Notes under the pieces: generated by a model
What the model saw: the letters and a program-made list of their open reading frames with translations, nothing else
Databases searched by the model: none
What the model was told of the DNA's origin: nothing
NCBI GenBank assembly: GCA_950295325.1
Contig: OX485809.1
Coordinates: 27,094,001 to 27,158,000, forward strand
Direction of reading: 5' to 3'
Source: Polytrichum commune
Lineage: Eukaryota; Streptophyta; Polytrichopsida; Polytrichales; Polytrichaceae
Length of the DNA stretch: 64,000 nt
Program-made: the position numbers and the translations under genes
Part shown: piece after piece, positions 37,423-60,851 of the stretch
How the letters are laid out: each line of letters begins with the position of its first letter
How positions within the stretch are numbered: the first letter of the stretch is position 1

Positions 37423-39612
37423 CTAATGGCTTGGAGAACATTCCCTATCACTCTCCTCACCTTCATTTGCTTCTAACAAGAAAAGATATCGTGTTCCACG
37501 CGAGAAATGACGAACGCGAGGAAGAGGTGGGGACTCCGCCTTCGCAAAGCAATCCGCCATTGCACTAGCATACGGGGGAAGCTCAAATGGCTTCGGAGGA
37601 CTTGAGAACATGTCTCGACGAATGACTGCGTCCTCCGCTGGCTCTCTAAACACCCAAGCAAAAGGATTAGAAACATGATGACACTGGAAAATGAGAACCT
37701 GAAATCAAGGCAAACATGGCAAAATATAGAAATCAAACTTACGCACAAAGGAATCCGAATGCCCTCTTGGTCATCTTTTGAGGAGGATCAAAGATAGATG
37801 TAGACGGTGCGGCAACTGAGCGAGATATACGCGCAGGCTGGGGATCGCGCATGGGGAGTAGGTGTCGCAACCCTTGCTAGCCCTCCTTGACCATCTTGCC
37901 AATTTTCGTTTCTAGCAAAGGTTACGAGCGCTAACCATTCGCATTCCGCCATGCTAATGGATAGCTCCTCTTACCCCGGACCAATAGTTCATAGGAGGGA
38001 ACCAACCCTCCTACTTTGCTTTCGGGACTCACCCCTTAATCGGTAAACCATTTCCCCAATGTGGACTTCCATCCATGGAAGTCCAATCCTATGTTGATCA
38101 TCGCGTTGCCGGAGCAACACTACAACAACCCGAACCATACTAGGCAACTATGGCCTCACAATAGGCCAAAGCCCATGGAGGCCTTGCCGTTCGGCCTCGG
38201 GTGGGTGAGGCCACACCACCTCACCCATATAAGCCTCTAGGACTTCACGCGGGGCCCCTACCCCACCGTCAACCAACCTCTTGTCTCCCTACCAAGAGTT
38301 GGGGCCAAGTGGACATTTTCCTTTAGCTGCTGGGCCTAGAACCCCCCAGCAGCTTCAGACCATCATAACTTCCTTGTATGATGTCTGATCATAACAACCA
38401 ACCACTCCATCCTCATCTACGCTTCACGTAGATGCCGATGGACTCCTCACTTGCTCCATTCGAGCAAGTCGTGAGGAAGTTATGCCTGTTTGAACCTTGG
38501 CAGTCCCGGGAATCCCTCCCAGGCACTGCTGTAGCAGGGCGCTGTCCCGGGACAGCGCCCCACTCAAATGGCCATAACTCCTAGCTCACACCTCCGATTG
38601 AGGTGTTCTTGAGCATTCTAGAATCACCACGCCATGAGCTACGCATAGCTCATGGCCTTGCCCTTGTGCCTCCTAGTCTTCGTGGGTGGGAGGCGTTCCC
38701 AACGCCCGGGGCCCTCACCCACACTAGGATCACTTGGGCCCTCTCACCAACGGCGCCACAAGTCCCGGGTGTCACTCCGGGGTCCCCCTTGTGCCCATGG
38801 TGTTTCGGGCACTCCTCATGGAGAGGTGCGCGACAGTAGGAGTGCATTGAAAATGACGGGGTCACTCTCAAGGGCCACAATATGCCGCTCAAGGGAGCGA
38901 CATGCTGTAATCGAACCACCTAAAGTAAAGAGAGGTAAAATGTTAGTATGGAAACTAATGAAGAAAAAATAACCGCAAAATCAAAGTAAGGATGATGCTG
39001 AAAGAGAATGCGTACCTACACCACATTGCCAGTCCATAATAACATCATTCTTGTCGGTGAGAATAGCAAAAATGATAAAGAAAAAAACATGATGCTTTTC
39101 GCGAGCACCTCTCCAGGGTATCCCATCACTACGCATCGCCTGACTCTTCTCATCGGTGAAAGCATTCAACCATCCATCTCGCTGGAAGTTGTAACCATAC
39201 TCTTGCATGGCCTCCTCACGCACTTTGAGAACGGAGTTAATACGAACAAGAACCTTGATGTTGAATTTCCGAGTCTGAAAAAAACAAAACGATTTCATAA
39301 GACTCGGAAGAAGTGAAATGAAAAGCAAAACAAAATCGGAGTAGGAGATGGAGAGTAGCTTACAACTCCAGAGGGGACCACAGGAGATTGGAGGTCCAAA
39401 TCATTCATACCGAACCAATCTTCGGCGACGTAGAAGTCGTACGTATATGCCCAATCGAAAAGAATCCTAGAAACACTGGCACTCGCACAATGGGCTAGGA
39501 CAAGGACACCATGATCATAGAGGTTAGATTTCGCAAATGCAAAAAGACACTCATAATATGATTCATGTAGCTTGTTCCAAGCAGGAACATCGGTGGAGAT
39601 GTTGGGCACCGG
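37423..39612 (-). pseudogene. N4/N6-type SAM methyltransferase-like gene, truncated and LTR-interrupted
   Basis: Minus-strand exons are 39612-39364, 39274-39016, 38919-38836 continuing at 37857-37743, and about 37698-37423. The second and third spell a methyltransferase motif I across a splice junction: GAREK, LTDKNDVIMDWQCGVG, then GSITACRSLERHIVALESD. This fits the D-x-x-x-G-x-G, AC...RH...E-x-D pattern of the bacterial N4/N6 DNA methylase fold. The first exon (HGVLVLAHCA, AEDWFGMNDLDL) would be an earlier strand of that fold. Damage: the 5' end stops exactly at the CACTA terminus (39613) with the frame still open, and a 973-bp solo LTR splits the third exon. The last junction has two possible readings: a phase-consistent one ending at 37473 and another ending at 37423 that needs a phase change. 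Substrate unknown; a non-DNA methyltransferase is possible. Confidence 0.6.
37863..38835 (+). mobile_element. Solo LTR (973 bp) inside the methyltransferase-like exon
   Basis: Begins TGTCGCAACC and ends GTGCGCGACA, giving short inverted ends TGTCGC/GCGACA with TG...CA termini. It is flanked by the 5-bp direct repeat GTAGG (37858-37862 and 38836-38840). No internal retroviral region is present. Removing it with one GTAGG restores an open exon. A second copy in the opposite orientation lies at 55377-56353. It contains the palindrome CTGTCCCGGGACAG. Confidence 0.88.
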
Positions 39613-39641
39613 CACTACAACAGATTGGGTATTTTGTGACT
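39613..39641 (+). repeat. CACTA left terminal inverted repeat
   Basis: 29 bases starting CACTACAACAGATTGGG and ending TTTGTGACT, an exact reverse complement of 55283-55311. Confidence 0.97.
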
Positions 39642-40431
39642 GAAATTTATGAGTGCCTTAAGTCATAAAATCCCAAAATATGACTGACGAGGCTCCGGAT
39701 GAGGATGACGCGCGCGGTGACTGGGTCTAGTCATTACCGACGAGTCGCTTCGGACATGAGTCATATGAATATATACGGTTGTGGAGGCGTATAAAAGGAC
39801 AGTTTCTACGATCCCCACTGCATGTGGGACATACCTTGACTAGCCTTGGACTCAGTGCCCTTTTTTGACCTGCCCGGGCAGAAAAAATACCAAACCGACG
39901 TGGAATGTGACTCCATGTGATCATGTTCTCTGCTGACGTGTAATATGACTTCCATGCGTCATAATTTTGCCGACGTGGCAGGCCACGTGGAATGTGACTG
40001 CTAGTTTTTTGACTGCTTGTAGTCATGTTTTTTGGGGCGTTAGTCACATTTTCTGCGGGGATGACATTGTTATATAACGTTCTGTAGTCATATTCTTAGT
40101 AACATGTTCTGCACAATGTGACATGATGGAGTGATATTCGCGTAGATGGAGAGTCACATTGCGTAATTCTTTGTGCGTTGTGATAACTGTATTGAGTTAG
40201 ATTCGTATTACTTGTAATTCTGATTGTCAGTCACATTTCGTGCCACATCCCAAGCAATGACGATATATTCAAGTTATGCGCTACATAACTGAGCCAAGTA
40301 AGAAATTGAGCACACAAATTGAGTACATAAATTTCAATAACTTAAACGACTTTATGTAGTCCATGTCTCCAAGCATATCCAAATGTGTTCATCTTTCCTA
40401 CATGACCCCTAAATGCGTAAACTACCGAAAT
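39642..40431. promoter_or_regulatory. Left sub-terminal repeat region
   Basis: No gene. Repeated TGACT-containing motifs (AATGTGACT, AATATGACT and their complements) occur at irregular spacing, with GC-rich phrases such as GACGTGGCAGGCCACGTGG. It resembles the sub-terminal transposase-binding regions of CACTA elements. It also holds the 3' end region of the minus-strand gene. Confidence 0.65.
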
Positions 40432-43400
40432 CTAAGTGGCTTGTTGAGGTTCCAGCGGGATAGCCTTCAGTGCTTCCACTGGCCACTTGGTGATGGACTT
40501 CAGTGCATCGCCCAGACGCAACATCGGAGGATCGTCGTCGTTGTTGCCCTCGTACAACAACACGGACTCTGCTCCCGGCTCGATCGAGGACACGCTAACT
40601 GATACGTTGCCCTCCTCAATGAGGCGCTCGTGGAGTGAGCCTCCTGCAAGGCTCACGATGATGCCTTGCGCCACTACGTTCGCCTTGGCCTTGTTCTCCT
40701 CGTCCTGGTCAAACAATGCGACATTGGACCCCGTGGCCAACGGCAAGGGTGCGTCCTCCACCATCGCATTAGCCGTCTCCGACAATACGGCGGTGACCTC
40801 TTCTGCTTGTGTCTGCAGCAGAAAAAGTAATTATCAACAATCAAAACAATCCGCGTGGAGTTACTGGAGCTTCAATACTCAATATATGACCTCACACTAG
40901 GCCATGATTGCATAATATGATAGGATATACTCATATACCGTACCGCAGTCATCATATATGACAACAATGAGTAATATAATTGCGACCTATAACTGAACAT
41001 AGTCATATGACTGGACATAGTCATATAACCCATGACTAGCCATATTCATGTGACTGAACATAGTCATATTGCCTATGACTGACCATAGTCATATGACTGG
41101 ACATAGTCATATGACTGGACATAGTCATATTAGAATGAGCACAAAAAGTAACACATTCGCCTAAGGTCCTCATATTGCTTCGTGGAGTGACATACCTATG
41201 CGGACATGTGTTATCAGCATTTTCCTTGTTTGCGATTGGAGTTAGAACCAAATAGAAACAAAAAATATCCAAGAGCAGCTTACCTGTGTCGATGAACCTA
41301 CCAGGTTCGCAGGTACCGACGCTAGATGGACCTCCTTAGTCAGATACGCCAAACAATATTCAATGTCGGATTGCTTGCGGGCCAATCCTTCGAATGGCCC
41401 GCAGATTCTACCCAGGAAGTCATCGTTGGGGTTTAGGGGATCCCAGCGCGGAAAGTTTAGGACATTTGAGGGGGGGGAACGCGCCGTCGCCGTTGTATCC
41501 CAATCGATTTGGAGACACCGTGTTGAGCCGTGCGTGGGGTCCGGAATCATATCAAATAGATTGCGGAGGTCTCTTATTGGGTTCTGGAGGGGGTAAGTCC
41601 TCCCCCACAGAAAGCTCCATTGAGCTGTCGTTCCCGATGCAAGAAATGCGCCTACAACCTCTAGTACGTTCTGCTCTACGGGGGACCATATCCCGACATC
41701 AAAATTAGAGAACAACATCGACAAAAACTTGTCGCAGTCGGTCCTTTTTTTTATTTTTACATTCAGGTCCTTTGCGTGGTGGATGACTAGATCCGGGCCC
41801 CACTCTCTCCTATCGTGCAGAGGTCTGATATCGCAAAGAAGTCCTACAACATTCAACACTATAATTTTCCTACGCCCGGAATCCGACACTCTTACCGAGG
41901 GGACCTTCGGGTGTAACGGCTGAATCTTCGGAGCATTGCCAGCCTTCTTCTTCTTCTGTGGACTGCCTCCTTTATGTGCCCGTTTTGCCGGCCTCTTTGT
42001 CGCAGGCGCCTCATGGTCCTCGTCCTCCTGCAAGTCCATGGGTTGATCTTCACTCGCTCCAACCGTCATAACCTGGGAGGCCACGACCCATAACACTCTA
42101 GCGTTAGAGTATGACTCGGCCCTGTCATACACGACTGCTTGTGATAACCTCATGTCATGTTATATGACTGCCACTTGTCATGTTTATGACTGCATTGAGT
42201 CATATACTATGACCGCCTATAGGCATATAACATGACTGCCTAGAGTCATGTGATATGACTGCCTTCAGTCATATCATGTAACATAATCATATGACTGTCC
42301 AATGTTGAGGCCACATCAAAGACACAAAGCTTACACGTAAGGATAACTATCGGACAAGTATAATGTGCATATGACATGAATGCCAACCTCTTTATGTCGA
42401 GCCATTGCACGCCGGGTAGGCCGTGCATCGTGTTCCGCCAATAGCTTCTCCGCTTCGCCCTTCCTCTTCTTGGCTATGGGTTTCTTCTTTTCAATGATGG
42501 GTTGGCAACCCATATCTGCTAGGGTGTTACGCAGGGGCTCCGATGCCGCGGTCGACCCAGTATGCCCGGATTCCGCCGACCTCCCAGTTGCCTGCATGTT
42601 CTAATGATCCACATGAGGCGTGTATTAGTGAACGATCCTAATGCAAGACATACAACATTGCTGAAGCAAAGGTGTTCCATACATGTATTCGACTGGAGTA
42701 CTAGAGGATATACAGACGCAATCTTTTCGGCGGTTACTTGGATCACGTCGACTCCTGCTTCCGCCGTGGCTGGCGGTTCCATGTCCGTGGCCGTCGTTCG
42801 CTTCTGCACCTCCAGCAGAAGCTGCTTCATCATAGCCTTCACATCTTCCATCTCCCCCTTCATGCTATCCTGGAAGTCGTGCAGCTCTGTCCGCGTAACA
42901 AAGAGGGCTCTATCTCCCGCTCTTGCATTTGGGAGTGGCCCTCTGGATGACGATGACCGGCCCCGTCCTGATTTCCCGGGTGTCGCTAGCTCGGTTTCCA
43001 CCTCCAGCTGCGTGGGGGGCCGCTCTAAATCTGCGGCCTGTGAAAGGAGCAACTGTGGATCCATGAAAAATACGTAAACATACTAAATATGACTATGGAA
43101 AGTCATATTACTTAGAATATGACTAGCTGAAGTCATATTACTTAGAATATGACTAGCTGAAGTCATATTACTTAGAATATGACTAGCTGAAGTCATATTA
43201 CTTAGAATATGACTAGCTGAAGTCATATTACTTAGAATATGACTAGCTGAAGTCATATTACTTAGAATATGACTAGCTGAAGTCATATTACTTAGAATAT
43301 GACTAGCTGAAGTCATATTACTTAGAATATGACTAGCTGAAGTCATATTACTCAACGTATGGCTAGGTGAAGTCATATGACTCACAATATGACTAGGTGA

Positions 43401-46202
43401 AGTCATATGTCTCTAAATATGACTATGTGAAGTCATATTCAGGCAGCGTGTGACTATCTATGGTCATACGACTTCCGGTGTGACTATGTAAAGTGATATC
43501 ATTCATTATATGACTGAATTATATGACTGCAGGTTGTCACATATTTATGTTTGAATGACTTGCACACAAAATCACTTACCAGTCTAGAGCGCACCTCCCC
43601 TTCGGACCTTCCAGAATACGACAAGGTCTGCACGGTCTGCCGTGCGGCTTTCATGCGCGTGGCTTCCGCGATTTTGTCCGTCCGGGCAATTAACCTCTTG
43701 AAGTTGTCAACGTGCGCCTTCTTCACATACGGTGGGAGCGGGCCACAACTCTCTATGAGTTTCTTCATGTTCGACCTGCGAGTGCGCATCTGCTGCCGCA
43801 AAATCTGGAAAAAAATAGCTTCAGGCACGTCTCCGAGTCCACCACGGTACTCGAACTGTGCGGCCATCTTGTCTTTAATTGCCAACAACAAAGGCCGTGG
43901 GTGTGCCCTGAAGTTGTCGATGCTCCAGTCGAGGTCGCGAGAGTACCCGCGTAGTCGCGTCAGCCAGTCAGGCCTGTGTATCCATGTCGGGCACCCGGCC
44001 TCGTCGACCTCGACCCACAAACGCTGACCACCACTGGAACTGTGCAGCTCGTCACTCTTCGTCAAGGACCGCCTAAGGTTCTTCAACTTCGACTGTCGAA
44101 GCCGCGCGCTTCCGTCGCCGCCTTCAACCTCTGCCGTCCGGCCAAGGCAACGCACCTTCTCCCGAAGTTCCGTCGGATCGGCTCCTTTTTGAGCCATACG
44201 CCGCAAAATGCTTACTTCCCGGAGCTCCAGCTCGTCAAGGAGCTCGTTACGATGCCCTACGCCTATGTCTACCTCCTCGCTGTCCGCCGATGCTTCGTCG
44301 GCGTCCATCTCACAAGCCCGGAGAGTATCTTGCATGTCTTGGGACAGCAGGATATCCTCCTCCTCGACCGCCTTGCCCTTCTTTCCGCTAGATTGCAACG
44401 GCCATGACCTGGGTTCATTTGCATTACCCTACACACCCAGTTGTACAGTATGCTATATGAAACCGTGGAGTCACCCTACATGACTGTAGTAAGTTACATG
44501 ATTGCATCGAGTCACACTACATGGCCGAGTGGAAGGATATTATTGTATAATATGACTGGACAAAGTCATATGACTACCTATAGTCATATTACATGACTGC
44601 ACTAAGTATCATGTTCGGGGTCAGATTATGACCTCCTGGAGTGATATGCATATACGGACATATGTTATCAACATTTTTTCTATATGTGTTTGGAATGAGA
44701 CCCAAGTAACGCGAACGACTAAATGCGTTTCCAAGTGCAAGAAACTACGGAGATTTATGTTTTTACCTTCCGCCTCCTTGGTCTGGGCCGCTCGTCCTCG
44801 GAAGTCTCCTCTTCGTCCTCTTCGTCCTCGTCATCATCGAGGTCCGTTTCAGGAAGTTGTTTTTTTCCTTTCGCTCTAGTGGTCACACCCCAGCCACCAC
44901 CCTGCTCTACAGATGGGCCCGGCTCTCCCACAGGCATGCCACGGCTGCTCTCAAAAACACGCGCAACCTCATTCGAAGTCATTTCCAAAACCGGCAATGT
45001 AATTGCCGGGAAACTAGCAATTGTGCGAAAAACTTCCACTTGCATGCCATCAGGCAGATTAGCTATTTTTGTTATCAAATTGACAAGTACATTGTTCATT
45101 TCGGCATTTTTGGTGGAAGTCGTGGGAACCACACTGTTCAGTACGAGCGTGAGTTATTAGACGGACATTACATCCCACAAAAATTGTAAGGTAAACGACT
45201 GCCAATGTTGAAACATGACTCAAATGAGTCATGTGGTCTCCACATTTTTTTGACTGGGAGGAGTCATAATCATGAAATTGTTCACAACATGGATTGAGGA
45301 TGGTTGAAAATAAAAATTGAAATTGAATGTTATGAATCTATTGCAGAGTTGACAACACATACACATTGTCAACACATACACAACACATACACCACACATA
45401 CACATACACATACACAACACATACACGTACACATACACATACACAACACATAAAATTGAGTTTGAACCTTTGTGAATTCATCTTACGAAAGGAATATGTA
45501 ACAAACACATACACGTGCTCTAGCTAGTAATAATTGAGTTCCAATGATTCAAACTTTCATTATCATCACGGGCACCAACCAATCATGCATGTGGGCAGCT
45601 TAGTTAGCCCTCACTACATTGTTACTCAATATGACACCCGAAATATTTAGCCTATGCATTATGGTTTCAATTCCCTTTCAAATTTGGTAACTCTGGACTG
45701 TTGGGTAGTATGGAATTATTCATTCATTATGTGATGTCAAACAAAAACATTGTTCATACACATGATCATAAATGCACGATCATAGACAACCAATAGAAGC
45801 CACATATGATGCACAACAACATGGATGTTCGAAGAAGTTACAATATGTTTAGGACTGGGAAGACTCACACTCACAAAAATGTGACTGGACTGTGTCATAC
45901 AGACCTTAAAGTATGACTACAGGGAGTCATAATACTATGAACTATGACTGCAAACAATCATGTCTTCAGCAAGTTGTATGCAATTTATGACTACAAAGAT
46001 TCATAAAAGTTTCAAACTTCATAAGCAAAGCTAGCGGTAGCAGGTCCGTTGTATTAGGGTTTGGGGTTACATACCCGGGGTCCTCAGGCCTCTTGAAATG
46101 AGAGGTCCCAATTGGTGTCAGACCGAGTTCCCTCAGCTTCTGGTTGTTGGCCTCGATGTTTTTCTTCCGTATCCTCTCATACTCCGGAATTTCTTCCTCC
46201 AT
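40432..46202 (-). CDS. TnpA-like accessory protein fused to a degenerate FCP1/NIF-like domain
   Basis: Seven exons read from 46202 down: 46202-46075, 45133-44767, 44428-43580, 43037-42714, 42591-42388, 42072-41284 and 40812-40432. Every junction is GT-AG and phase-consistent, giving 1,013 aa without a stop. Residues 1-43 hold EYERIRKKNIEANNQKLREL. Residues 43-165 end in an acidic DDDEDEEDEEE tract and a basic RPRPRRRK. Residues 166-448 have a Transposase_24 (Ptta/En/Spm) feel (WVEVDEAG, PDWLTRLRGYSRDLDW, IAEATRMKAAR, SYSGRSEGEVR). Residues 449-556 are probably coiled coil. From about 692 to 880 is an FCP1/NIF-like fold (KIIVLNVVGLLCDI, DKFLSMLFSNFDVGIWSP, LNFPRWDPLNPNDDFL). The DxD nucleophile site reads NVV, and the DDSP motif is replaced by DWDTTA. 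So phosphatase activity is not expected. The C-terminal exon is short and acidic. Intact exons argue for selection or recent activity. The exon set is my own reading by splice consensus. Confidence 0.72.
43083..43430. repeat. 30-bp tandem array of paired ATATGACT/AGTCATAT sites
   Basis: About eleven units of ATATGACTAGCTGAAGTCAT plus ATTACTTAGA lie in intron 3 of the minus-strand gene. Each unit carries the motif ATATGACT facing its complement AGTCATAT across a 6-base spacer. The central units look identical and the outer ones diverge. The motif is the one repeated through the whole CACTA element. Confidence 0.95.
45345..45452. repeat. (ACACATAC)n simple repeat
   Basis: Irregular ACACATACAC / CACAACACATA run in the first intron of the minus-strand gene. 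Confidence 0.85.
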
Positions 46203-47214
46203 GATTCTGCAAAACCATAATCCACATTAGTGTTCACTAGAATACAAACAGGTTGTATACATTTTTTATGTTTGTTTTGTATTCCCTACCAGTCCTCATC
46301 GATGTTTTGTGGATGCTACAGGTTAGCGGATAAGGGATTGAACAACCAGCTCCTACTCAACAAATGCCAAGGGAGTTGCGAATATAGGTGAGGTCAACTT
46401 TCTCCACAGGTATTCGATTGTGTGTGCGGGGTTTTAGCATGATATTTAGGTGTTTGACTAAGATAAGTGACCGGATTAGAATAACTTTCATTCGTGACAT
46501 GTAGAATAATACATAGAGACCCGATTTTGTGTCCGAAATAGGGTTCATCATTTTTCAATTTAGATGTCGTCTTTCAAAGCACAAGTTTTGAAGTTTTTGA
46601 AGTATTATGAAATATTTAAACTAAAATTACTCTCCTTGGAGATGAGAGAGTGCACAACCTTGGAGGGTGAGTGGAAGTGGTGGAGAGAGGGAAAACCCTG
46701 AAAAGTTTAGGAGAGAGGTCTGCCTCTGAAAACCCTGCTGCCACGTTACCTCCCGAAATAAATTCAAATGTGGTGCCGAGGTGCACCCACCACCGAAGTC
46801 GGGGGGTGGAGGAAGCTGCACCCACCAGCCAGCAGCTCCGACACCGAATCTGGTGTCGATTTAAACTCAGAAATGGCCAATGTATACCTGTCTCCCGAAA
46901 CCCACCTGCTGCCGCAAAATCCACTCCCTCTCTCGAAACCCACTCCCTCTCGGCACCCACCACCCACCACCCACCACCCACCACCCACCACCCACCACCT
47001 CACCCAACACAACTCTCACAAAACCCTATCACCCACCACCTCACCTGAATGAGCCAAATGTATCGAGGCTGCGGAGATTTCGAGGCAGGTGCCGAATCCT
47101 TCGAGTCTGCCACCCTAAACCACATCAAATTTCGCGATCCCTAAACCATGTCTTCGACACTGAATCTGCCTCTCACCTGAATCAGCTATAAATTAAATCT
47201 GAATCCTCAAAGTT

Positions 47215-47645
47215 GTGACAGATGAGGGAGGAGGAGAGCGAGGGGATGGAGGGTGGGGGAGGGAGGGAGGGCGGGGGAGGAGGAGAGCGAGGGATGGAGG
47301 GCGGGGGAGGGTAGGAGGCACGAGTGAGGGACTGCGGCCGAGGGAGCGCGTGCGGGGGAGGGGACGAGGAGGGCGAGGCAGGGACAGGGAGGGGGGGAGG
47401 GACAGAGAGAGAGGGAGGGAGGGAGAGAGAGAGAGAGAGAGGGGGAGGGGGAGGGAGGGAGGGAGAGAGAGGGAGGGAGAGAGAGAGAGAGAGAGAGGGG
47501 GAGGGACAGAGAGAGAGGGAGGGAGGGAGAGAGAGAGAGAGAGAGAGGGGGAGGGGGAGGGAGGGAGGGAGAGAGAGGGAGGGAGAGAGAGAGAGAGAGA
47601 GAGGGGGAGGGGGAGGGGGAGGGAGGGAGGGAGAGAGAGAGGTAA
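47215..47645. repeat. GA-rich simple repeat tract
   Basis: Over 400 bases almost wholly of G and A on the plus strand: GGGAGG, GAGAGA and AGGGAGGG blocks with a larger partial duplication (about 47400-47510 and 47510-47640). The long open frames here are composed of Arg, Gly and Glu, or Pro, Ser and Leu on the other strand. They are repeat artefacts. Confidence 0.95.
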
Positions 47646-49076
47646 ATTATAAAAATAGACCTCTTTAAAATAGATCAGCAACTTTGATTTGCACGTAAAT
47701 AGTGAAATTTTACATTTTTTTATAGTAACAATTATTGGGCTATGAAAAAGTCATCAAACATTGTCGTGGATGGATGAGTTCATCCATCAACCAAATTAAA
47801 GCCCAACATTCTCTTTACTTTTACATCCTCAACATTTGAAATTACTTTTACATTCTCAACATTTGAAATTACTTTTACATTCTCAACATTCGAAATTACT
47901 TTTACCAAAAAAGTATATATGGGCTTCATGACACTTACTTATAACCGGGGTATATGACTCCCCTGGAATCGATTACGATATATTTACGGTATATATCATA
48001 GGTCCACACTTATCCATGTGATCTTTTATACCAATATAAGTTTATCGCTATCAAATGAAGAATTGTCCAGTAGGTCAAATATTCATTTTTTGTAAGGGGA
48101 TTCTAGCTCTTCTCCCTAATTTACTTTATAAGGCATGAACTTGACGAGGGATTCGTGGTGTCTATGTAAACTCATCCATTATGAAATTGACATCAAATTA
48201 CACATCAAAGTCCCTAAATTAATCTTATGGAGTCTAGTTGGAATAAATCGACCCTCAACCTTAACGGGGACCTTTTTTAAACTAAATCCCCTTCATCCAC
48301 ATTGGATCACTTGACATTATACGGACATAATAGTGGTCAATTATTTCTTAATATAATACCTATTCACCCTTTGAGATTGTATTTGGTACCTTCTTAATAT
48401 TCAAGTGTTTTGTTAACAAATGAAACCCATCCTTCAGGTCGGTGTTCATTGAGTCTGCTTTGCACTTCTAGGACGAGTTTTCATTTAGGAGCGAAAAGAA
48501 CTATTGATGTTGAAATGGTCCCTTGGTACCACCTTTTCTAAGTATGTAAGGTAGATGGGCTTAAGTGGCTCCCTTCTTTAATCGGACCCCTAGATATGAT
48601 TGATAATTGGTTCGGTGAGGATCATCAAAAAGAAAATATCATAAAGAAATATGTTTAGAAAAGATTGGAATACGTCTTCAAAATTCAAAGAACTACTCTA
48701 CATTGAACAATGAACACAATTGGGAGAACCCGCGTATTTAGTTAAGAAATCAACAAATGTTATGCATTTCTCATGACTATAATTAAATCAAATGAAAGTA
48801 ATGCTTGGTGTTTGCTCGGCTTTGAAAATAGGAAACTTTAGCTCACTATGTGTGAGCTCCCATATATAATTGTGTACACTCAATGACCAAGAAGATACAT
48901 ATTGTGCACAATGGTCATATCATACAATCATATGCCACGATTTATCAAACACGTTCATGAATGTTGTAAAAGAAGATTCATACAAAGTGGATTGGGTTCA
49001 TGATGTTTCATAATATTCCTTCAAGTTGCTTCACGGCTTCGGTTAGAGTATTTTCACGCCTTCTAGTCATGGGCTG

Positions 49077-49295
49077 ATGACTGTCATGTCTTATATGACT
49101 GACATGTGTTATATGACCCCCGTGTGTTCTATGACAACCAGTCATATGACTACCCTGTGTCATATGACTGTCATGTCTTATATGACTGACATGTGTTATA
49201 TGACCCCCGTGTGTTCTATGACAGCCAGTCATATGACTACCCTGTGTCATATGACTGTCATGTCTTATATGACTCCCCTGTGTTATATGACTGCC
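49077..49295. repeat. 87-bp tandem repeat built of TGACT motifs
   Basis: Unit 1 is 49077-49163, unit 2 is 49164-49250 and a partial third follows. Each contains several TATGACTG or CATATGACT motifs and related TATGACCCC. It lies about 130 bases upstream of the first plus-strand exon, so it may be part of a transposase-responsive promoter. Confidence 0.9.
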
Positions 49296-49428
49296 TCGAT
49301 ATATTTGACTTCCCTTAGACCGTATTAAGCCACATAGATAGGTGACTGCGTGCATACGAGCACTTCCTCCTTGTAAGGTATTCCCATATCACAAATTGAC
49401 CCAGCGCGTATGCCGTGCACACCACAGG

Positions 49429-50327
49429 ATGGCAGGAGGGGAGGTCGAAAGCTTGAAGCATCTACAGTTATGGCAAGAAGAAGAGGTCCAAACAGATGCA
49501 ATGCGGCTATCCAAGTACCCATGCCCCTGCATGGAGTGTGCAGGAGGGAAAGTCCTCGATCGAGCCACAATTCGAAAGCATCTTCGCAGCAAAAAAAGGG
49601 ACCCCGTGTTTACAGCCTCTATCTTGGTGAGTCATTCCATGAAACGACTTGTGAATGAGCGTTAGCGGGTGGTCCTGCTTTGAGCGAGTTTTCATCTTTG
49701 TGTACATGAATTTTGTAGGCCCGATGGAGACCCATTGTAAAAGCTGCTTGCAAGACATCCCTGAGAAAGTTTCTAGGAGGACACGAAATGCCTTCACAGT
49801 CAATGCCAAACACTGCGTCTGCAAGAGTACGAGCCTTGCAGTCATGGGGGTCAAACGTGTATGACGGACAGTGGTGTGACGGGCCCATCCCAAAACTTAT
49901 AAAGTTTTCATACTGGAATAGAGAATGGGAAGTAAGGGTGTCCAACTTCCCATTCATGGGTTGGGGTCTCTTTGCACTTCAACCCGCCAAAGAGGGAGAG
50001 GAACTGCTTCCATTCGTAGGACCACAATACACCAAGGGAGAATACAGTGCCTTGAAGAAGGCACATCCTCGAGTGAAGTCATATGCGATGCAAGTTGAGC
50101 CGGACTTGTACATCGATGGAGATGTAATGAAAGGGAATGTCGCAGGCTTCATAAATAGTTCCATAGGACGCAAAGAAATAGGAAATGTGGTGTGGGAATT
50201 TCGCATGTTGCCAAAACCCTGGAACAAACAGGAATGGGGGTATGTAATCACCATGGCCACAAAGGACATTATGGTCGGAGAAGAGTTGTATGCACATTAC
50301 TCTTTGAACCCGCACACCACATTGTAG
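49429..50327 (+). CDS. SET-domain protein with transposase-associated zinc motif
   Basis: Two exons, 49429-49626 and 49719-50327. The donor is ATCTTG|GTGAGT and the acceptor TTTTGTAG|GCCCGA, both phase 0; 268 aa. Residues 29-52 (YPCPCMECAGGKVLDRATIR, then KHL) match the CPC..C...HL pattern of the transposase-associated domain at the N-terminus of plant TNP2 proteins. Residues about 140-262 are a SET domain: FMGWGLFALQPAKEGEELLP, then YIDGDVMKGNVAGFINSS, then VITMATKDIMVGEELYAHYS. SET domains transfer methyl groups from SAM to lysines, often of histones. The usual FINHS is FINSS here (His replaced), the Asn is kept, and the GEEL-x-x-x-Y end is intact, so activity is plausible but unproven. No pre-SET or post-SET cysteines are visible. 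It lies just upstream of the transposase exons on the same strand. Confidence 0.78.
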
Positions 50328-50855
50328 GCTGACACCCATTAGTCCACATTCGGAATGACTAAAGTGTGCCATGTGTTCACTAACATGACTACACGAAGTC
50401 ATATTTTGTTTTGACAAAATTTTGTATACATGTCCAGACCACAGTATACATATGTACGTGGAACATGACCAATTTTTTACATCCAATGCTTGTATTTGTA
50501 TGGTGCATGAAATTTCTTTTACCTAACACACTCTTGTCTTCATAATCGATGAACATCCCCCCCCCCACGCATGTTACAAGTTCATGTTATATTCGGCGTT
50601 TCATGATTGCCCCTCGTAGATACATTGTTCATTTTATGACAGAATCATGTAACACAGAAGTCACAAATTTATGACTCATCCATGTGATACAATGTTACTT
50701 GTGATTGCTCCTTGTCGTTTTTATACATTTGTATATAATATGTGCACGTTATATACAGTCCGTGTTCTATGATCGTCATTGTTATGAGTCCTTGTCGTAT
50801 GTTTCTGCCAAAGCGAAAATATATAACATGCGAACAAATTTATCACTATCTGCAG

Positions 50856-53800
50856 GACGAGTACAGCCCGATTGACTTGTTCTCCCATGCACCCCGGATT
50901 GGGCAAAGAAGCCAGACATACCCTAACACAAACGATGGACAAGAAGGAGAAGTTGAGGTTCTACGTATGGTGGCAGAGTGCTTTGGCAAGTACGATGACC
51001 TCAAATTTGATGGACATGAAACCGAAGCCACCATACATGAGGGACTCGGGGATGCATTGGTTGAAGACGATGAAGGGGAGGATGGTTTCACAACGAAGGA
51101 CAGTGAAGGTAGCGAGGGGGAAAGGGAAGAAACGAATGACCCCATGGAAACAAGAGGGAGTACGATGAACAGTGAGGACCCCACTGGGGTAGACCACCAG
51201 AAGCTCTTATGCGAAGCTGGAACTCCACTGTATGAGGGAAGCCCCTCGAACCGTCTCACATCGACACTCTTGATACTATTGTGTTGCACCATATTCGCTG
51301 TACCAAACAACTTTGTGGATGAGTTGTTGAAGTTGTTGAAGGAGACAATTTTACCCAAGGACAACACAATACCGAAATCATTTAACGAGGCGAAAGGCTT
51401 GTTGATGAAGTTGGGGTTGTCCTACAACTCAATACATGCGTGTAGAGATGGATGTTGTTTGTTTCGGAAAGAATTGGAGAATGCAACGGAGTGCCCAACA
51501 TGCCACAAATCGCGCTTTGTAGAGAACTCCGGTACAATTCCAGTCAAAGTTTTGAGACATTTTCCCTTGATTCCTCGTTTGCGAAGGATGTACAGCTGCA
51601 CACGGATCGCGGGCCTAATGAAGTGGCATGTAGGTGGGAAAAGTAAGGACAAGGTGATGAGGTCCGTGGTGGACTCGAAGGCTTGGGACCACGTAAATAA
51701 TAGGTGGCCATGGTTTGCGGAAGATGAACGGAACGTTAGGCTTGGCCTTGCACTGGATGGCGTAAATCCATTTAGGAACCAAAGTCTCAGCCACTCTACT
51801 TGGCCCGTGGTCATGCTAAACTACAATCTCCCCCCTTGGTTAGTGACCAAAAACTTCTTCATGATGCTTGCGCTAATCATACCAGGAAAAGAGAGTGTAA
51901 GGGACAGGAACGTGGATGTGTACATGGCACCGTTGATTGAGGAGCTCCAAGAGCTTTGGAAAGGGATCGATTGCTTGGACGGATCGCAAGGAAACCCCAA
52001 AGAGAAAACATTTAAGCTACATGGCATGCTTTTGTGGACGGTGAATGACTTCCCGGCGTACGGTTTGATTTCGGGGCAAGTAACAAAAGGACATAGGGCT
52101 TGCCCCGTGTGTGGCCCCAACGTGGCAACACGGCGTTCCAAAGCGCTGAAAAAAAATGTTTACCTTGGGCATAGACGACAACTGCCAATGACCCACCAAT
52201 GGAGACGACAAAGGTCCAATTTTTGACGGGCAGCCGGAGATGAGACCACCGCCAAGAAGGATGAGTGGTCGAGAGCAATTGCGATATGCGAACAAGCGAG
52301 AAGAGTGGACGAAAAAACACTACAGAAACCAAACTGGGCAGACGACAGACCCCGTACACGAACATGGAGTGAAGAGGAGGACATGTCTATATGACCTTCC
52401 ATACTGGAAAATACGTGTTTCTTATTATGAGAATTAAGGGAGTGGACGTAGTCACATGATTGCATATAGTAATATTGTTTATGAGTATTATGTGAGTGGA
52501 CGTAGTCATGTACAGTCACATGATTGCACGTAGTGATATTGTAATTCGCTCCGGAGCATTTCTCACTAGGTCGAGTCATTGTGCAGGATTTTCTAATTCG
52601 ACATACGTTGGATGTTATGCACTGTGAGAAAAACATCGCTGAGAATGTGATGAAAACCATATTTGGAGAGAAGGATACACTTGGAGTTCGTCTGGACATG
52701 AAGGAGGCGGATATACGCCCGCATCTTTGGCCCGTAGCAGGAACAAAATCCGGTAGCGTGATTCTACCTCGATCCTCGTACGTTATGACGAAAGAAGAGC
52801 GTGAAGTCTTTGTGGAGCAAGTTTGTGCACTGCGAACCCCCACTCACTATGTGGGACAGTTGAAGAAGCGCGTAAACGTGGATGGGCAAATTAAAGGCCT
52901 GAAATCCCACGAGTACCATGTCCTCATGCAGCAAGTGTTGGCACTATGTGTGCGCTGCACAATGGAAAAGGAAGTGCGGACATCAATAATAATGTTGAGC
53001 CGTGTATTCAGGAGGGTGTGTGCTAAGTCCATTGATCCTGCAACAATACAGGAGATGAGGTGTGAAGCGGCCATAGCACTATGCATGTTGGAAAAAGAAT
53101 TCCCGCCATCATTTTTTGACATCATGAGCCATTTGGTCCTGCATCTCGTGGAGGAAATGGAAATTTGTGGACCCGTACATACACGTTGGATGTACCCTAT
53201 TGAGAGGTACCTGAAGACTCTAAAAGGGTATGTCCGAAACCGTACTCGCCCAGAGGGTTGCATGGCTGAAGGCTACGCCATAGTAGAGGCATTGGGATTC
53301 TGTACGGAGTATATGCAAGAATATACAGTCACCACTCGAAGAGTGTGGGATAACAAAGAAGACCCATCAATGTATGATGAGATCCTCGAAGGTGGCGGGC
53401 GGGCGCGTCATCTCCCATCCGACCTTCGACAATGGATACATGAGTTCGTGGTGAACAATGCGGCACCACTGGAGGAGTGGAGGAGGTGAGTTCACATTTT
53501 AGTGGAAGAACCTTAAATGCACCACCTCTCTTAGAACAACAGTGCAGACCATACGAACTATAACAAAACACATCTTTTGTGACCAAAAAATATGACTGCA
53601 GTCAATCATATTTTGGGATTTATGACTGAGTACAATCACAAAATGTAGTCGTAAAATATGCATTTCGTTGTAGTTATCACGACACAGTACGACTACTGTT
53701 GTATGCAAATATGACTACCCTTAGTGATTTTAGCAAGTCACGGGTAATGCTGTGTTGGGTTGTATCCAAAATGCAGGAAACACGAGGATGACATGTCACG

Positions 53801-54656
53801 GCGGGAATGTGAGAGGCACGAATACATGCGCAAGAAGCGGAAGGCGCGGGTAATGTACCCAGCGGAGCTGCGCGACGAGGATTTCCACATTTGGTTTCCA
53901 AAAGCAGTGATGCGCACCATAGAAGAAGGCACGGAGGAGGTACACGAAGACGTTAGGGCCTTGATGTTACCTCCATCGAATGCAGCGAAGTCGTATCGAT
54001 CCATGTATGCGTTTGGAAACCACATCCGTGTCCGAAGCGCACAGGCGCAATTGACAACGATGGACTCTGGGGTGGCCGCAACATTTCGACAAGTATGTCG
54101 CTCGGGCCTGAAGGACACAAATCCAAAGGCAGCGGAGTTGGAGTATGTGGGTTGGGTGGAGGAAATCCTATCTGTGGACTATGGATTCTTCGAGGTGGTG
54201 GTCCTCTATTGCAATTGGGTCGTTGCAAACATTAAGGGAGATGGGGCGACGATGAAGCGCGACGACTATGGTTTCACCAGTGTAAACTTTGACAGATTGA
54301 TCCCGTTCTCAGCACAATCATTTGCATTTCCTCTCCACATCGAACAAGTTTTTTTTGCACCTGATGTAGCGAAGTGTGGATGGGAAGTTGTTTTGCGCAA
54401 GGAACCGAGAGGGGTTCGGGTATTCTCCAAACAACAAGGAACGGATGAAGTACAGTGCATAGCACTAGGTAGGACTTCTGATTTTCCCGGATTACAAGTG
54501 ACGGCGTTTCAGGACGATATTGTACCGAAAACACCCATATTGGGCGATGCAGTGGAAGTAGGGCCAGGAGTGGTTGCCAAGGCACTAGAATGTCTAGAGG
54601 GACCGGATGACGCATCGGTAGATGACTCCGAGCACAGCGTATCGGACGGTGATTGA
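50856..54656 (+). pseudogene. CACTA TNP2-type transposase, one frameshift
   Basis: Exons are 50856-52416, 52587-53485 and 53777-54656. The first acceptor (ATCTGCAG|GACGAG) is in phase with the 49429-49626 exon, which would supply the usual N-terminal transposase-associated motif. After an acidic linker comes the Transposase_21 region (LLKLLKETILPKDNTIPKSF, GLSYNSIHACRDGCCLFRKE, ECPTCHKSRF, MLLWTVNDFPAYGLISG, KGHRACPVCG). The next exon has LIRHTLDVMHCEKNIAENV and a DUF4218 region (FFDIMSHLVLHLVEEM, RWMYPIERYLKTLKGYV). The last has a DUF4216 region (DYGFTSVNFDRLI, EQVFFAPDV). The frame breaks in a run of five T at 52220-52224 and continues one base over. It is otherwise open to a stop at 54656. 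The donor at 52416 is weak (GTTTCT). About 1,180 codons overall. It would bind the inverted repeats and cut the element out. The break may be real or a homopolymer sequencing error. Confidence 0.9.
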
Positions 54657-55282
54657 CTTCCCGTCCGTGCAAGAAGTTGTATAAATGAAACTTAGGTTTT
54701 TTATATATTTAATTTCAATTATATACATGTTCAATTAGTCTCTTGGCAATAGTAAAAATCAAATTTCCTCCCCAATTTCCCCCTATACTCCCTAAAACAT
54801 CAATCAATTAATTATTCAATAAATAAACATGGGACATTCCCAATTCTCATTGCCGTTCATACTATAACACACAAAGTACTTAATTTTGACCAATATCTGT
54901 CATTATTAAATAAATACTCCACACCATAATACTAGATAATGAGTCACGGGGCAAAAACACAAGAGGCCCATCTAGGGCAGCCTGAATTATCAAGGGCTGC
55001 CCAAAAGAAAGAAAAAAATGGTCCTAGTCAGAATGTGACTGAAGAATATGACTCGCAGAAAAATGTGACTGCCACACATGACTGGGCGTCCACCATAGAC
55101 GTTCCCCGTCGTTCCCTATAAAGGCACTCGTCGTTCCCATACGCCGTATATAGTACATTTGCTGAATACGACACAAAAATATGACTGCGAGTCATATTTT
55201 TGAATTTCATACCCGACAAAGGTCGAGGCCTGCCAAAATGTGACTGCATGTAGTCACCAGTCATCCCCAGTCACATTTCCCT
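54657..55282. promoter_or_regulatory. Right sub-terminal repeat region
   Basis: AT-rich, then from about 55,030 a cluster of AATGTGACT, AATATGACT and complementary AGTCATATT / AGTCACATT motifs up to the inverted repeat, mirroring the left end. Probable transposase-binding sites. Confidence 0.7.
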
Positions 55283-55311
55283 AGTCACAAAATACCCAAT
55301 CTGTTGTAGTG
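55283..55311 (-). repeat. CACTA right terminal inverted repeat
   Basis: Ends CTGTTGTAGTG; exact reverse complement of 39613-39641 over 29 bases. It is followed directly by satellite sequence (TAAGTGCTAACTC). Confidence 0.97.
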
Positions 55312-55376
55312 TAAGTGCTAACTCAAACATTCAAATCAATGCGACATCTGGTCCATTACCCTTGAAAGGCCTAGCC
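55312..55376 (+). repeat. Partial satellite monomer between CACTA end and solo LTR
   Basis: 65 bases that match the 75-bp satellite unit downstream, from TAAGTGCTAACTC to GGCCTAGCC. They show that the solo LTR at 55377 was inserted into the satellite array. Confidence 0.93.
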
Positions 55377-56353
55377 TATCGCGCACCTCTCCATGAGGAG
55401 TGCCCGAAACACCATGGGCACAAGGGGGACCCCGGAGTGACACCCGGGACTTGTGGCGCCGTTGGTGAGAGGGCCCAAGTGATCCTAGTCTGGGTGAGGG
55501 CCCCGGGCGTTGGGAACGCCTCCCACCCACGAAGATTAGGAGGCACAAGGGTAAGGCCATGAGTTATGCGTAGCTCATGGCGAGGTGATTCTAGAAAGCT
55601 CAAGAACACCTCAATCGGAGGTGTGAGCTAGGAGTTATGGCCATTTGAGTGGGGCGCTGTCCCGGGACAGCGCCCTGGTACAGCAGTGCCTGGGAGTGAT
55701 TCCCGGGACTGCCAAGGTTCAAACAGGCATAACTTCCTCAAGACTTGCTCAAATGGAGCAAGTGAGGAGTCCATCGGCATCTACGTGAAGCGTAGATAAA
55801 CATGGAGTGGTTGGTTGTTATGAATAGACATCATACAAGGAAGTTATGATGGTCTGAAGCTGCTGGGGGGGTTCTAGGCCCAGCAGCTAAAGGAAAATGT
55901 CCACTTGGCCCCAACTCTTGGTAGAGAGACAAGAGGTTGGTTGACGGTGGGGTAGGGGCCCCGCGTGAAGTCCTAGAGGCTTATATGGGTGAGGTGGTGT
56001 GGCCTCACCCACCCGAGGCCGAACGGCATGGCCTCCATGGGCATTGGCCCAATGTGAAGCCATAGTTGCCTAGTATGACTCGGGTTGTTGGAGTGTTGCT
56101 CCGGCAACGCGATGATCAACATAAGATGGGACTTCCATGGATGGAAATCCACATCTAGGAATGGGTTACCGATTAAGGGGTGAGTCCCGAAAGCAAAGTA
56201 GGAGGGTTGGTTCCCCTCCTATGAACTATACGGTCCGGGGTAAGAGGAGCTAACCATTAGCATGGCGGAATGTGAAGGGTTAGCGACTCGTAACCTTTGC
56301 TAGAATCGAAAATTGGCAAGATTGTCAAGGGGGGGCTAGCAAGCGTTGCGACA
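55377..56353 (-). mobile_element. Solo LTR (977 bp) inside the satellite
   Basis: Reverse-complement copy of the 37863-38835 solo LTR with scattered differences. On the minus strand it begins TGTCGCAACG; its far end has one changed base (TATCGCGC on the plus strand). It is flanked by the 5-bp direct repeat TAGCC (55372-55376 and 56354-56358). Removing it with one TAGCC restores a continuous satellite unit. Confidence 0.88.
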
Positions 56354-57701
56354 TAGCCTCTCCGAATCTAAGTGCTAACTCAAACACTCAAATCAATGCG
56401 AAATGTGGTCCAAGACCCTTGAGTGCCTAGCCTCTCCGAATCTAAGTGCTAACTCAAGCATACACAACAAAGTCAAAATCTGGTCCATTACCCTTGAAAG
56501 GCCTAGCCTCTCGGAATCTAAGTGGTAACTCAAGGATACACAACAAAGTCAAAATCTAGTCCATTACCCTTGAAAGGCCTAGCCTCTCGGAAACTAAGTG
56601 CTAACTCAAACATTCAAATCAATGCGAAATCTGGTCCAAGACCCTTGAGTGCCTAGCCTCTCGGAATCTAAGTGCTAACTCAAACATTCAAATCAATGTG
56701 AAATCTGGTCCATTACCCTTGAAAGGCCTAGCCTCTCGGAATCTAAGTGCTAACTCAAGGATACACAACAAAGTCAAAATCTGGTCCATTACCCTTGAAA
56801 GGCCTAGCCTCTCGGAATCTAAGTGCTAACTCAAACATTCAAATCAATTTGAAATCTGGTCCAAGACCCTTGAGTGCCTAGCCTCTCGGAATCTAAGTGC
56901 TAACTCAAACATTCAAATCAATGCGAAATCTGGTCCATTACCCTTGAAAGGCCTAGCCTCTCGGAATCTAAGTGGTAACTCAAGGATACACAACAAAGTC
57001 AAAATCTAGTCCATTACCCTTGAAAGGCCTAGCCTCTCGGAATCTAAGTGCTAACTCAAACATTCAAATCAATTTGAAATCTGGTCCAAGACCCTTGAGT
57101 GCCTAGCGTCTCGGAATCTAAGTGCTAACTCAAACATTCAAATCAATGCGAAATCTGGTCCATTACCCTTGAAAGGCCTAGCCTCTCGGAATCTAAGTGC
57201 TAACTCAAGGATACACAACAAAGTGAAAATCTGGTCCATTACCCTTGAAAGGCCAAGCCTCTAGGAATCTAAATGCTAACTCAAGCATACACAACAAAGT
57301 CAAAATCTGGTCCATTACCCTTGAAAGGCCTAGCCTCTCGGAATCTAAGTGCTAACTCAAACATTCAAATCAATGCGAAATCTGGTCCAGTAACCTTGAG
57401 TGCCTAGCACTTCGGAATCTAAGTCCTAACTCAAACATTCAAATCAATGCGAAATCTGGTCCATTACCCTTGAAAGGCCTAGCCTCTCAGAATCTAAGTG
57501 CTAACTCAAACATTCAAATCAATTTGAAATCTGGTCCATTACCCTTGAGTGCCTAGCACTTCGGAATCTAAGTGCTAACTCAAACATTCAAATCAATGCG
57601 AAATCTGGTCCATTACCCTTGAAAGGCCTAGCCTCTCGGAATCTAAGTGCTAATTCAAGGATACACAACAAAGTCAAAATCAAGTCCATTACCCTTGAAA
57701 G

Positions 57702-60700
57702 GCCTAGCCTCTCCGAATCTAAGTGCTAAGTCAAGCATACACAACAAAGTCAAAATCAAGTCCATTACCTTTGAAAGGCCTAGCCTCTCGGAATCTAAGT
57801 GCTAACTCAAACATTCAAATCAATGCGAAATCTGGTCCATTACCCTTGAAAGGCCTAGCCTCTCGGAATCTAAGTGCTAACTCAAACATTCAAATCAATT
57901 TGAAATCTGGTCCATTACCCTTGTGTGCCCAGCACTTCGGAATCTAAGTGGTAACTCAAACATTCAAATCAATGCGAAACCTGGTCCATTACCCTTGAAA
58001 GGCCTAGCCTCTCGGAATCTAAGTGCTAACTCAAACATTCAAATCAATTTAAAATCTGGTCCATTACCCTTCAGTGCCTAGCACTTCGGAATCTGAGTGC
58101 TAACTCAAAAATTCAAATCAATGCGAAATGTGGTCCATTACCCTTTAAAGGCCTAGCCTCTCCGAATCTAAGTGCTACCTCAAACATTCAAATCAATGCG
58201 AAATCTGGTCGAAGACCCTTGAGTGCCTAGCCTCTCGGAATCTAAGTGCTAACTCAAGGATACACAACAAAGTCAAAATCTGCTCCATTACCCTTGAAAC
58301 GCCTAGCCTCTCGGAATCTAAGTGGTAACTCAAACATTCAAATCAATGCGAAATCTGGTCCAAGACCCTTGAGTGCCTAGCCTCTCGGAATCTAAGTGCT
58401 AACTCAAGCATACACAACAAAGTCAAAATCTGGTCCATTACCCTTGAAAGGCCTAGCCTCTCGGAATCTAAGTGCTCACTCAAACATTCAAATCAATTTG
58501 AAATCTGGTCCATTACCCTTGAAAGGCCTAGCCTCTCCGAATCTAAGTGCTAACTCAAACATTCAAATCAATGCGAAATCTGGTCCATTACCCTTGAAAG
58601 GCCTAGCCTCTCGGAATCTAAGTACTAACTCAAGGATACACAACAAAGTCAAAATCTGGTCCATTACCCTTGAAAGGCCTAGCCTCTCGGAATCTAAGTG
58701 CTAACTCAAACATTCAAATCAATGCAAAATCTGGTCCATTACCCTTGAAAGGCCTAGCCTCTCCGAATCTAAGTGCTAACTCAAACATTCAAATCAATGC
58801 AAAATCTGGTCCAAGACCTTTGAGTGCCTAGCCTCTCCGAATCTAAGTGCTAACTCAAGGATACACAACAAAGTCAAAATGTGGTCCATTACCCTTGAAA
58901 GGCCTAGTCTCTCGGAATCTAAGTGGTAACTCAAGGATACACAACAAAGTCAAAATCAAGTCCATTACCCTTGAAAGGCCTAGCCTCTCCGAATCTAAGT
59001 GCTAACTCAAGGATACACAACAAAGTCAAAATGTGGTCCATTACCCTTGAAAGGCCTAGCCTCTCCGAATCTAAGTGCTAACTCAAACATTCAAATCAAT
59101 TTGAAATCTGGTCCATTACCCTTGAGTGCCTAGCACTTCGGAATCTAAGTGCTAACTCAAACATTCAAATCAATGCGAAATCTGGTCCATTGTCCTTGAA
59201 AGGCCTAGCCTCTCGGAATCTAAGTGCTAACTCAAGGATACACAACAAAGTCATAATCTGGTCCATTACCCTTGAAAGGCCTAGCCTCTCGGAATCTAAG
59301 TGGTAACTCAAATATTCAAATCAATGCGAAATCTGGTCCAAGACCCTTGAGTGCCTAGCCTCTCGGAATCTAAGTGCTAACTCAAGGATACACAACAAAG
59401 TCAAAATCTGGTCCATTACCCTTGAAAGGCCTAGCCTCTCGGAATCTAAGTGCTAACTCAAACATTCAAATCAATGCGAAATCTGGTCCATTACCCTTGA
59501 AAGGCCTAGCCTCTCCGAATCTAAGTGCTAAATCAAACATTCAAATCAATGCAAAATCTGGTCCAAGACCTTTGAGTGCCTACCCTCTCCGAATCTAAGT
59601 GCTAACTCAAGGATACACAACAAAGTCAAAATCTAGTCCATTACCCTTGAAAGGCCTCGCCTCTCCGAATCTAAGTGCTAACTCAAACATTCAAATCAAT
59701 GCGAAATCTTGTCCATTACCCTTGAAAGGCCTAGCCTCTCGGAATCTAAGTGCTAACTCAAACATTCAAATCAATTTGAAATCTGGTCCATTACCCTTGA
59801 GTGCCTAGCACTTCGGAATCTAAGTGGTAACTCAAACATTCAAATCAATGCGAAATCTGGTCCATTACCCTTGAAAGGCCTAGCCTCTCCGAATCTAAGT
59901 GCTAACTCAAGGATACACAACAAAGTCAAAATCTGGTCCATTACCCTTGAAAGGCCTAGCCTCTCGGAATCTAAGTGCTGACTCAAACATTCAAATCAAT
60001 GGGAACTCTGGTCCAAGACCCTTGAGTGCCTAGCCTCTCGGAATCTAAGTGGTAACTCAAGGATACACAACAAAGTCAAAATCTGGTCCATTACCCTTGA
60101 AAGGCCTAGCCTCTCGGAATCTAAGTGCTAACTCAAGGATACACAACAAAGTCAAAATCTGGTCCATTACCATTGAAAGGCCTAGCCTCTCGGAATCTAA
60201 GTGCTAACTCAAACATTCAAATCAATGCGAAATCTGGTCCATTACCCTTGAAAGGCCTAGCCTCTCCGAATCTAAGTGCTAACTCAAACATTCAAATCAA
60301 TGCAAAATCTGGTCCATTACCCTTGAAAGGCCTAGCCTCTCGGAATCTAAGTGCTAACTCAAACATTCAAATCAATTTGAAATTTGGTCCAAGACCCTTG
60401 AGTGCCTAGCGTCTCGGAATCTAAGTGCTAACTCAAACATTCAAATCAATGCGAAATCTGGTCCAGTACCCTTGAGTGCCTAGCACTTCGGAATCTAAGT
60501 GCTAACTCAAACATTCAAATCAATGTGAAATATGGTCCATTACCCTTGAAAGGCCTAGCCTCTCGGAATCTAAGTGGTAACTCAAGGATACACAACACAG
60601 TCAAAATCAAGTCCATTACCCTTGAAAGGCCTAGCCTCTCCGAATCTAAGTGCTAACTCAAACATTCAAATCAATTTAAAATCTGGTCCATTACCCTTCA

Positions 60701-60851
60701 GTGCCTAGCATTTCGGAATCTAAGTGCTAACTCAAACATTCAAATCAATACGAAATGTGGTCCATTACCCTTGAAAGGCGTAGCCTCTCCGAATCTAAGT
60801 GCTAACTCAAACATTCAAATCAATGCGAAATCTGGTCCAAGACCCTTGAGT
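57702..60851 (+). repeat. Higher-order satellite repeat, copy 1 (3,150 bp)
   Basis: The unusual monomer variants recur at an exact offset of 3,150 bases (42 x 75). Examples are the monomers with GTGCTAAGTCAAGC, CCCTTTAAAGG and TTGTCCTTG. Sequence upstream of 57702 does not match that upstream of 60852, which fixes the left edge. Confidence 0.9.

Follow-up and report, generated by a model that had tools for sequence, protein, structure and literature searches.

A SET-domain exon between the first and main transposase exons of CACTA elements in Polytrichum commune, and a possible role in self-targeted chromatin modification

The CACTA element and its genes

The window, which here means the whole 64,000-nucleotide stretch that was analysed, contains a CACTA (EnSpm) element on the forward strand at positions 39,613-55,311. 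The element is 15,699 bp long, and its limits are the bases at which homology with three other copies is exactly lost. The left terminal inverted repeat (39,613-39,641, forward strand) is CACTACAACAGATTGGGTATTTTGTGACT; the right one (55,283-55,311, reverse strand) agrees with it at 29 of 29 bases, and the same sequence occurs at both ends of the three copies used for comparison (L001, L002 and L005; end sequences L043-L048). Each of these three copies is flanked by a 3-bp target duplication (TCC, CTC and TGT). No target duplication was found around the window copy, which has CGG on the left (39,610-39,612) versus TAA on the right (55,312-55,314); matching flanks were either lost or never there. 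The right flank of the window copy is inside a 75-bp satellite and the left flank is outside it, which suggests that this copy was rearranged later. The CACTA-starting inverted ends, the 3-bp duplication in three of the four copies examined and a TNP2 domain place the element in the CACTA superfamily. A 3.6-kb stretch around the SET exon is 99.4-99.6% identical between the window and copies L001, L002, L004 and L005, which suggests recent activity of the element.

Several other repeats are present in the surrounding sequence. A 979-bp inverted repeat, 95% identical, lies outside the CACTA ends at 37,863-38,836 and 55,376-56,353, and its right copy is embedded in the satellite. This repeat was considered as the ends of the element (37,863 and 56,353) and rejected because the copies terminate at 39,613 and 55,311. 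The satellite, with a unit of about 75 bp, forms a long array at 56,354-64,000 with a higher-order organisation, in which segments spaced by about 3.15 kb are 97% alike. A 479-bp direct repeat, 99.4% identical, is found beyond the element at 19,847-20,325 and 32,809-33,287.

The gene of main interest begins with exon 1 (49,429-49,626), followed by intron 1 (49,627-49,718, 92 bp), a SET exon (49,719-50,327), the remaining 528 bp of the transposase intron (50,328-50,855) and the TNP2 exon (Transposase_21, 50,856-52,226; PF02992, E 1.2e-66), all on the forward strand. The transposase continues in a DUF4218 region with approximate exon limits (52,545-53,489, forward strand; PF13960, E 1.1e-37), and an open frame at 53,748-54,656 (forward strand) has a sub-threshold match to DUF4216 (PF13952, 28.5 bits versus a cut-off of 30.6). 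In the window copy, TNP2 is open for 495 aa, versus 565 aa in all eight of the next-best matches, and so the transposase of this copy is probably broken near the end of the TNP2 exon.

On the reverse strand, the element has a divergent open frame without a known domain (43,499-44,428), for which the genome has 129 matches. Judged by eye in the window and at C7:24.01 Mb and C5:44.12 Mb, this frame lies 5-6 kb upstream of the SET exon and on the opposite strand. A second unusual domain is aboard: an open frame at 41,242-42,159 (reverse strand) matches the NIF/CTD-phosphatase profile PF03031 (27.1 bits, cut-off 21.8). The motif AGTCATA is present 77 times in the element, where 1.6 occurrences would be expected from the left flank, and it was the top-ranked 7-mer of that comparison. 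Many of the motifs are in tandem arrays in the divergent gene region and just upstream of exon 1, where an AGTCATA-rich tandem repeat at 49,077-49,291 (forward strand), directly upstream of the exon, contains a repeat pair that is 97% identical. In the divergent gene region, a 60-bp tandem repeat at 43,086-43,515 is made of AGTCATA motifs. Repeats near CACTA ends are ordinary.

Identity of exon 1 and the SET exon

A reading of this DNA made from the sequence alone (the sequence-only reading) had described exon 1 and the SET exon as a two-exon, phase-consistent gene. The two do splice, from GT to AG in phase 0, to an open frame of 268 aa, and the motifs quoted at the time (CPCMEC...HL, GWG, GNVAGFINSS and GEELYAHYS) are present. 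The SET assignment was borne out by the profile, which the second exon matches with 39 bits (PF00856, cut-off 22.4; E 1.2e-9) over profile positions 1-104 of 105. Six of six diverged copies also score above the PF00856 cut-off, one of them, L036, narrowly (23.1 versus 22.4) and over positions 36-104 only.

The SET products of the window and 20 database proteins were aligned; P0021-P0023 were left out as less complete. In the numbering of the 202-aa exon product, W82, G83, Tyr122, Asn146 and Tyr194 are invariant in all 21 sequences, and Gly81 is present in 19. The canonical NHSC motif is absent; its position is occupied by N-S-S in 21 of 21 sequences and then by a variable residue, and so catalysis by the SET protein is not certain. 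Among proteins of solved structure, the best sequence relatives are H3K4-specific Set1-type, ASH1L and NSD enzymes. The likeness is through the SET core only, and therefore the substrate cannot be firmly inferred. ASH1L and NSD enzymes methylate H3K36.

The zinc motif of exon 1 had been called TNP2-type. The comparison of profiles and all 12 exon-1 sequences compared agree with this, but the window exon by itself falls below the PF13963 (Transpos_assoc) cut-off, with 21.4 versus 27.7 bits. The same exon has 23 bits to the U-box profile, and the spliced product has 25.2 (cut-off 21.4). When the window and 11 relatives are considered, 12 of 12 exon-1 sequences match PF13963 at E <= 0.05 versus three of 12 for the U-box. 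A profile of exon 1 also aligns with the N-termini of seven TNP2 transposases (hhalign probability 97, E 9.5e-11, 32% identity over 56 columns). These seven, which include R1sor_003372 of the liverwort Riccia sorocarpa, have Transpos_assoc and TNP2 in one frame. Because of the 12 versus three matches and this alignment, we read exon 1 as Transpos_assoc, and the alignment makes it most likely that exon 1 is the normal front end of a transposase. The U-box is treated as a look-alike, given that three of the 12 sequences match it, and this is a judgement and not a disproof. A frame shift caused by the A-run in exon 1, with the true end of Transpos_assoc in a different frame, was also considered and rejected, as seven relatives (71-97% identical) keep the annotated frame at both ends of the exon; one of the seven, P0150, has a short local frame shift.

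Distribution, relatives without SET and selection

The same genome (407.8 Mb in 64 contigs, seven of them large) contains many copies. A search with the SET exon had 206 candidates, of which the best 150 were scored; some of these matches are pieces of one copy. The exon pair of the proposed fusion recurs in these copies: exon 1 is upstream, on the same strand and within 2.5 kb, in 107 of the 150 scored SET matches, and none of the scored matches has the pair in reversed order or on opposite strands within that distance. Exon 1 is upstream in all of the best 30 SET loci (the window copy is L003), although L006, L010 and L026 have only part of it. The TNP2 exon is downstream in 29 of the 30, the exception being L028, with the order constant. 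The GT donor and the AG acceptor of the SET exon are present in 30 of 30 loci, the window included, and the ATG of exon 1 in 29. The AG before 50,856 is present in 27 of the 28 loci listed out of these 30. A search that began with exon 1 had 402 candidates. Among the best 150, at least 59 have both SET and TNP2, at least 41 SET only and at least 22 TNP2 only, and 28 have neither; the neighbour counts are minimum values, as scoring was limited to the best candidates. At fixed coordinates and with L030 left out, the SET exon is free of stops in 18 of the 29 best loci. In 15 of these 29 near copies, exon 1 is open from its ATG and SET is open to its stop codon.

The arrangement extends to more distant elements. 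In L031-L035, the aligned part of SET shares 47-61% identity with the window, and the order exon 1, SET, TNP2 is kept. The same order is kept in L036 (G000:C3:52943300-52948300), where SET is 36% and TNP2 28% identical to the window; here, a Transpos_assoc-like stretch upstream matches PF13963 at E 5e-4 and is a putative exon 1, its donor site not located. L036 is very diverged, with a 326-aa SET open frame that has a proline-rich stretch, and there is an equal-scoring second match at C5:1795602.

The databases have 23 proteins of the same SET family, 44-96% identical. None of the 23 covers more than 74% of the 268-aa spliced query, and none spans the exon junction. P0015 resembles L032 and P0009 resembles L031 almost exactly, which implies that some of the database proteins are from the same or a very close species. 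A SET protein, P0017, and a TNP2 protein, P0057, both from source ena, have a longest contig of 2846 bp each; the two may share a contig in another species, but such a coincidence is too likely by chance to be used as evidence. When collections of viral and prokaryote contigs were scanned with the SET alignment, no relative was confirmed.

Six elements of the same genome (L037-L042) keep exon 1 and TNP2, and exon 1 is joined straight to TNP2. With seven SET queries, no match was found between the two exons at E <= 0.01. In these six and in L031-L035, exon 1 has the same last codon, followed by a GT donor. A usable phase-0 AG acceptor precedes TNP2 in 11 of the 12 diverged loci, L041 failing, and the TNP2 acceptors of L031 and L032 are at differing places. 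A usable phase-0 acceptor precedes SET in five of the six diverged loci and is changed in L033. When compared with the 12 diverged loci in six frames, neither intron 1 nor the 528-bp segment that separates SET from TNP2 nor the stretch upstream has any similarity, and a hidden exon between SET and TNP2 was rejected at E <= 1e-3. Since exon 1, SET and TNP2 are the only parts that are similar among the diverged families, no candidate N-terminal exon other than exon 1 was found for either product. The profile match to PF13963, the TNP2 N-termini and the relatives without SET thus point to a Transpos_assoc-like exon that is probably common to the transposase and the SET product. The proposal of a separate gene made of the zinc motif and SET is therefore only partly upheld: splicing in phase is possible, but by comparison the zinc exon is the transposase's own first exon.

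Selection on the three exons was estimated with a codon model. The dN/dS check of the SET exon, which the sequence-only reading had proposed, gave an omega of 0.25 across sub-families (eight sequences, 198 codons, 2dlnL 121 versus omega 1). Exon 1 has an omega of 0.12 (11 sequences, those without SET included) and TNP2 one of 0.20 (seven sequences), each far from 1. Among 14 recent copies of the youngest sub-family, the omega of SET is 0.51 (2dlnL 8.8), weaker constraint than across sub-families; these copies were picked for having no stops, which biases the value toward conservation, and kappa was fixed at its estimate in the null model. By a simple pairwise count, dN/dS is 0.41 for SET in 29 recent copies, of which 11 contain stops, and 0.46 for TNP2 in 27 copies, and so SET is kept about as strictly as the transposase.

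The TNP2 and SET trees place the elements they share in the same order. In the TNP2 tree, the six elements without SET, joined by the database protein P0057, form one clade (100/98) that is nested between SET-bearing clades (91/93 and 95/91). This nesting fits one loss better than several gains, and from these sequences the absence of SET in the six-element clade looks like a loss. The deepest part of the tree is unsure, L036 and P0106 having long branches. Copies that lack the exon or have it decayed, which had been named in advance as a finding against the fusion, thus do exist, in the form of one nested clade and of stops in 11 of the 29 near copies. The suggestion that SET might be a host fragment captured in one element gives way to a different picture, in which SET is a standing part of the family that is found in four diverged element types and is under purifying selection.

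A predicted chromatin enzyme with the front end of a transposase

We have high confidence in the anatomy, namely a SET exon nested in the transposase gene. The SET exon ends in a stop codon, and the transposase could be made only if this exon were left out by splicing; since the zinc exon is apparently common to both, alternative splicing would be needed to make the two products. We predict that exon 1 spliced to SET would give a 268-aa Transpos_assoc-SET protein and that skipping of SET would give the transposase. Both would have the same front end, which we take to be DNA-binding, and the SET protein should then reach the same places as the transposase, either the element ends or the AGTCATA repeats. 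There, it would most likely methylate a lysine, probably on histones. On balance, we lean toward this reading, in which SET would be an alternative last exon in the intron between exon 1 and the main transposase exon and element-targeted methylation would follow. Several observations count against it: the spliced product was not found among the 23 database proteins, constraint on SET is weaker within the youngest sub-family, only 15 of the 29 near copies have both exons open, the NHSC motif is altered, one clade is without SET, and the SET acceptor of L033 and the TNP2 acceptor of L041 are unusable in phase.

Plants silence transposons mainly through chromatin marks. The methylation might keep copies of the element accessible or unsilenced, or it might ready the ends for transposition. 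An anti-silencing role of the SET product is the one we prefer, but it is a tentative suggestion that leans slightly to the doubtful side. The most complete version of the proposal, that the transposase locus produces a self-targeted chromatin writer by splicing one front exon to either the transposase or SET, that each element could thereby set the chromatin of its own copies, and that this is an anti-silencing system whose age reaches back before the split of highly diverged sub-families, is possible and is offered with caution.

Other explanations were considered. The Transpos_assoc-SET isoform could mainly be a brake on the transposase or a modifier of it, competing for its DNA sites or methylating the transposase instead of chromatin. 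Exon 1 would be common to both products in this case too, and PMC4158355 gives the P element as a case in which retention of an intron inhibits transposition and raises the same possibility for CACTA elements. However, a pure competitor could do without a SET core, and yet W82, G83, Y122, N146 and Y194 do not vary among the aligned proteins and SET is under purifying selection; methylation of the transposase itself could still be true. This explanation seems unlikely, and we consider it distinctly unlikely that SET is instead a separate gene within the element, unfused to exon 1 and with a promoter and a start codon of its own. Three database proteins (P0002-P0004) start with MAS- at one place, and the lack of the spliced frame among the 23 database proteins could be viewed in the same way. 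However, Met is shared by at most four of the 21 sequences in any column ahead of the SET core, which argues against a conserved start codon of its own; the starts in the database are presumably choices of gene callers, and the frame is open up to the acceptor in five of six diverged loci, with the acceptor AG retained in every near locus.

If the SET protein is targeted, it could also work away from the element, choosing or opening chromatin for insertion at new target sites. A targeted methyltransferase could do so; we regard this as improbable. The least credible explanation is that SET is a captured piece of a host gene, a hitchhiker without function. PMC13317346 reviews how plant elements, CACTA among them, capture genes, and the stops in 11 copies would fit such a history, but the selection result (omega 0.25) strongly disfavours it, the same architecture is found in diverged families and 18 of the 29 near copies are stop-free. 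We therefore consider capture without function highly improbable.

If the prediction of a self-targeted enzyme made from the transposase locus is correct, a histone-methyltransferase-like domain on a transposase front end would be a direct counter-weapon to silencing, as well as a natural model of targeted epigenome editing.

SET genes have already been reported in other transposon superfamilies. HarbingerS and MuDR transposons of Phytophthora carry SET histone methyltransferase genes (Kojima and Jurka, cited in PMC12730594), and so, like the element described here, they are DNA transposons with a SET gene. However, they belong to other superfamilies and have oomycete hosts, the account in PMC12730594 does not mention an alternative exon with a transposase N-terminus, and the likeness is by description only (PMC12730594). 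The transposase of the present element is TNP2, and so it is not a Harbinger element. Among the matches listed, no title or abstract opening reports SET genes from CACTA elements of plants; a prior description, for example in Repbase Reports, is possible. Plant SET proteins were surveyed in 2017 in a paper whose main text lacks any word starting with 'transpos' (PMC5725981).

Other known systems resemble this one in part. The VANDAL elements of Arabidopsis encode their own anti-silencing factor, VANC, whose targets are often tandem repeats (PMC5735166), like AGTCATA here. However, VANDAL elements are MuDR-type and VANC is a gene of its own (PMC12730594, PMC13317346), and the abstract of PMC5735166 mentions no SET domain. 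TET/JBP dioxygenase genes in fungal transposons, EnSpm included, are likewise epigenetic enzymes on CACTA-type elements, but they act on methylcytosine in DNA and their hosts are fungi (PMC12730594). In SETMAR/Metnase, a SET domain is described as linked to a portion of a transposase whose targets are transposon ends; however, it is a protein of anthropoid primates with an inactive Hsmar1-type transposase (PMC8704517, PMC8327481), whereas here SET is inside many mobile CACTA copies. Finally, the plant TNP2-type CACTA transposases share Transpos_assoc, Transposase_21, DUF4218 and the CACTA ends with this element, and the difference is that here a SET exon is nested in the first intron.
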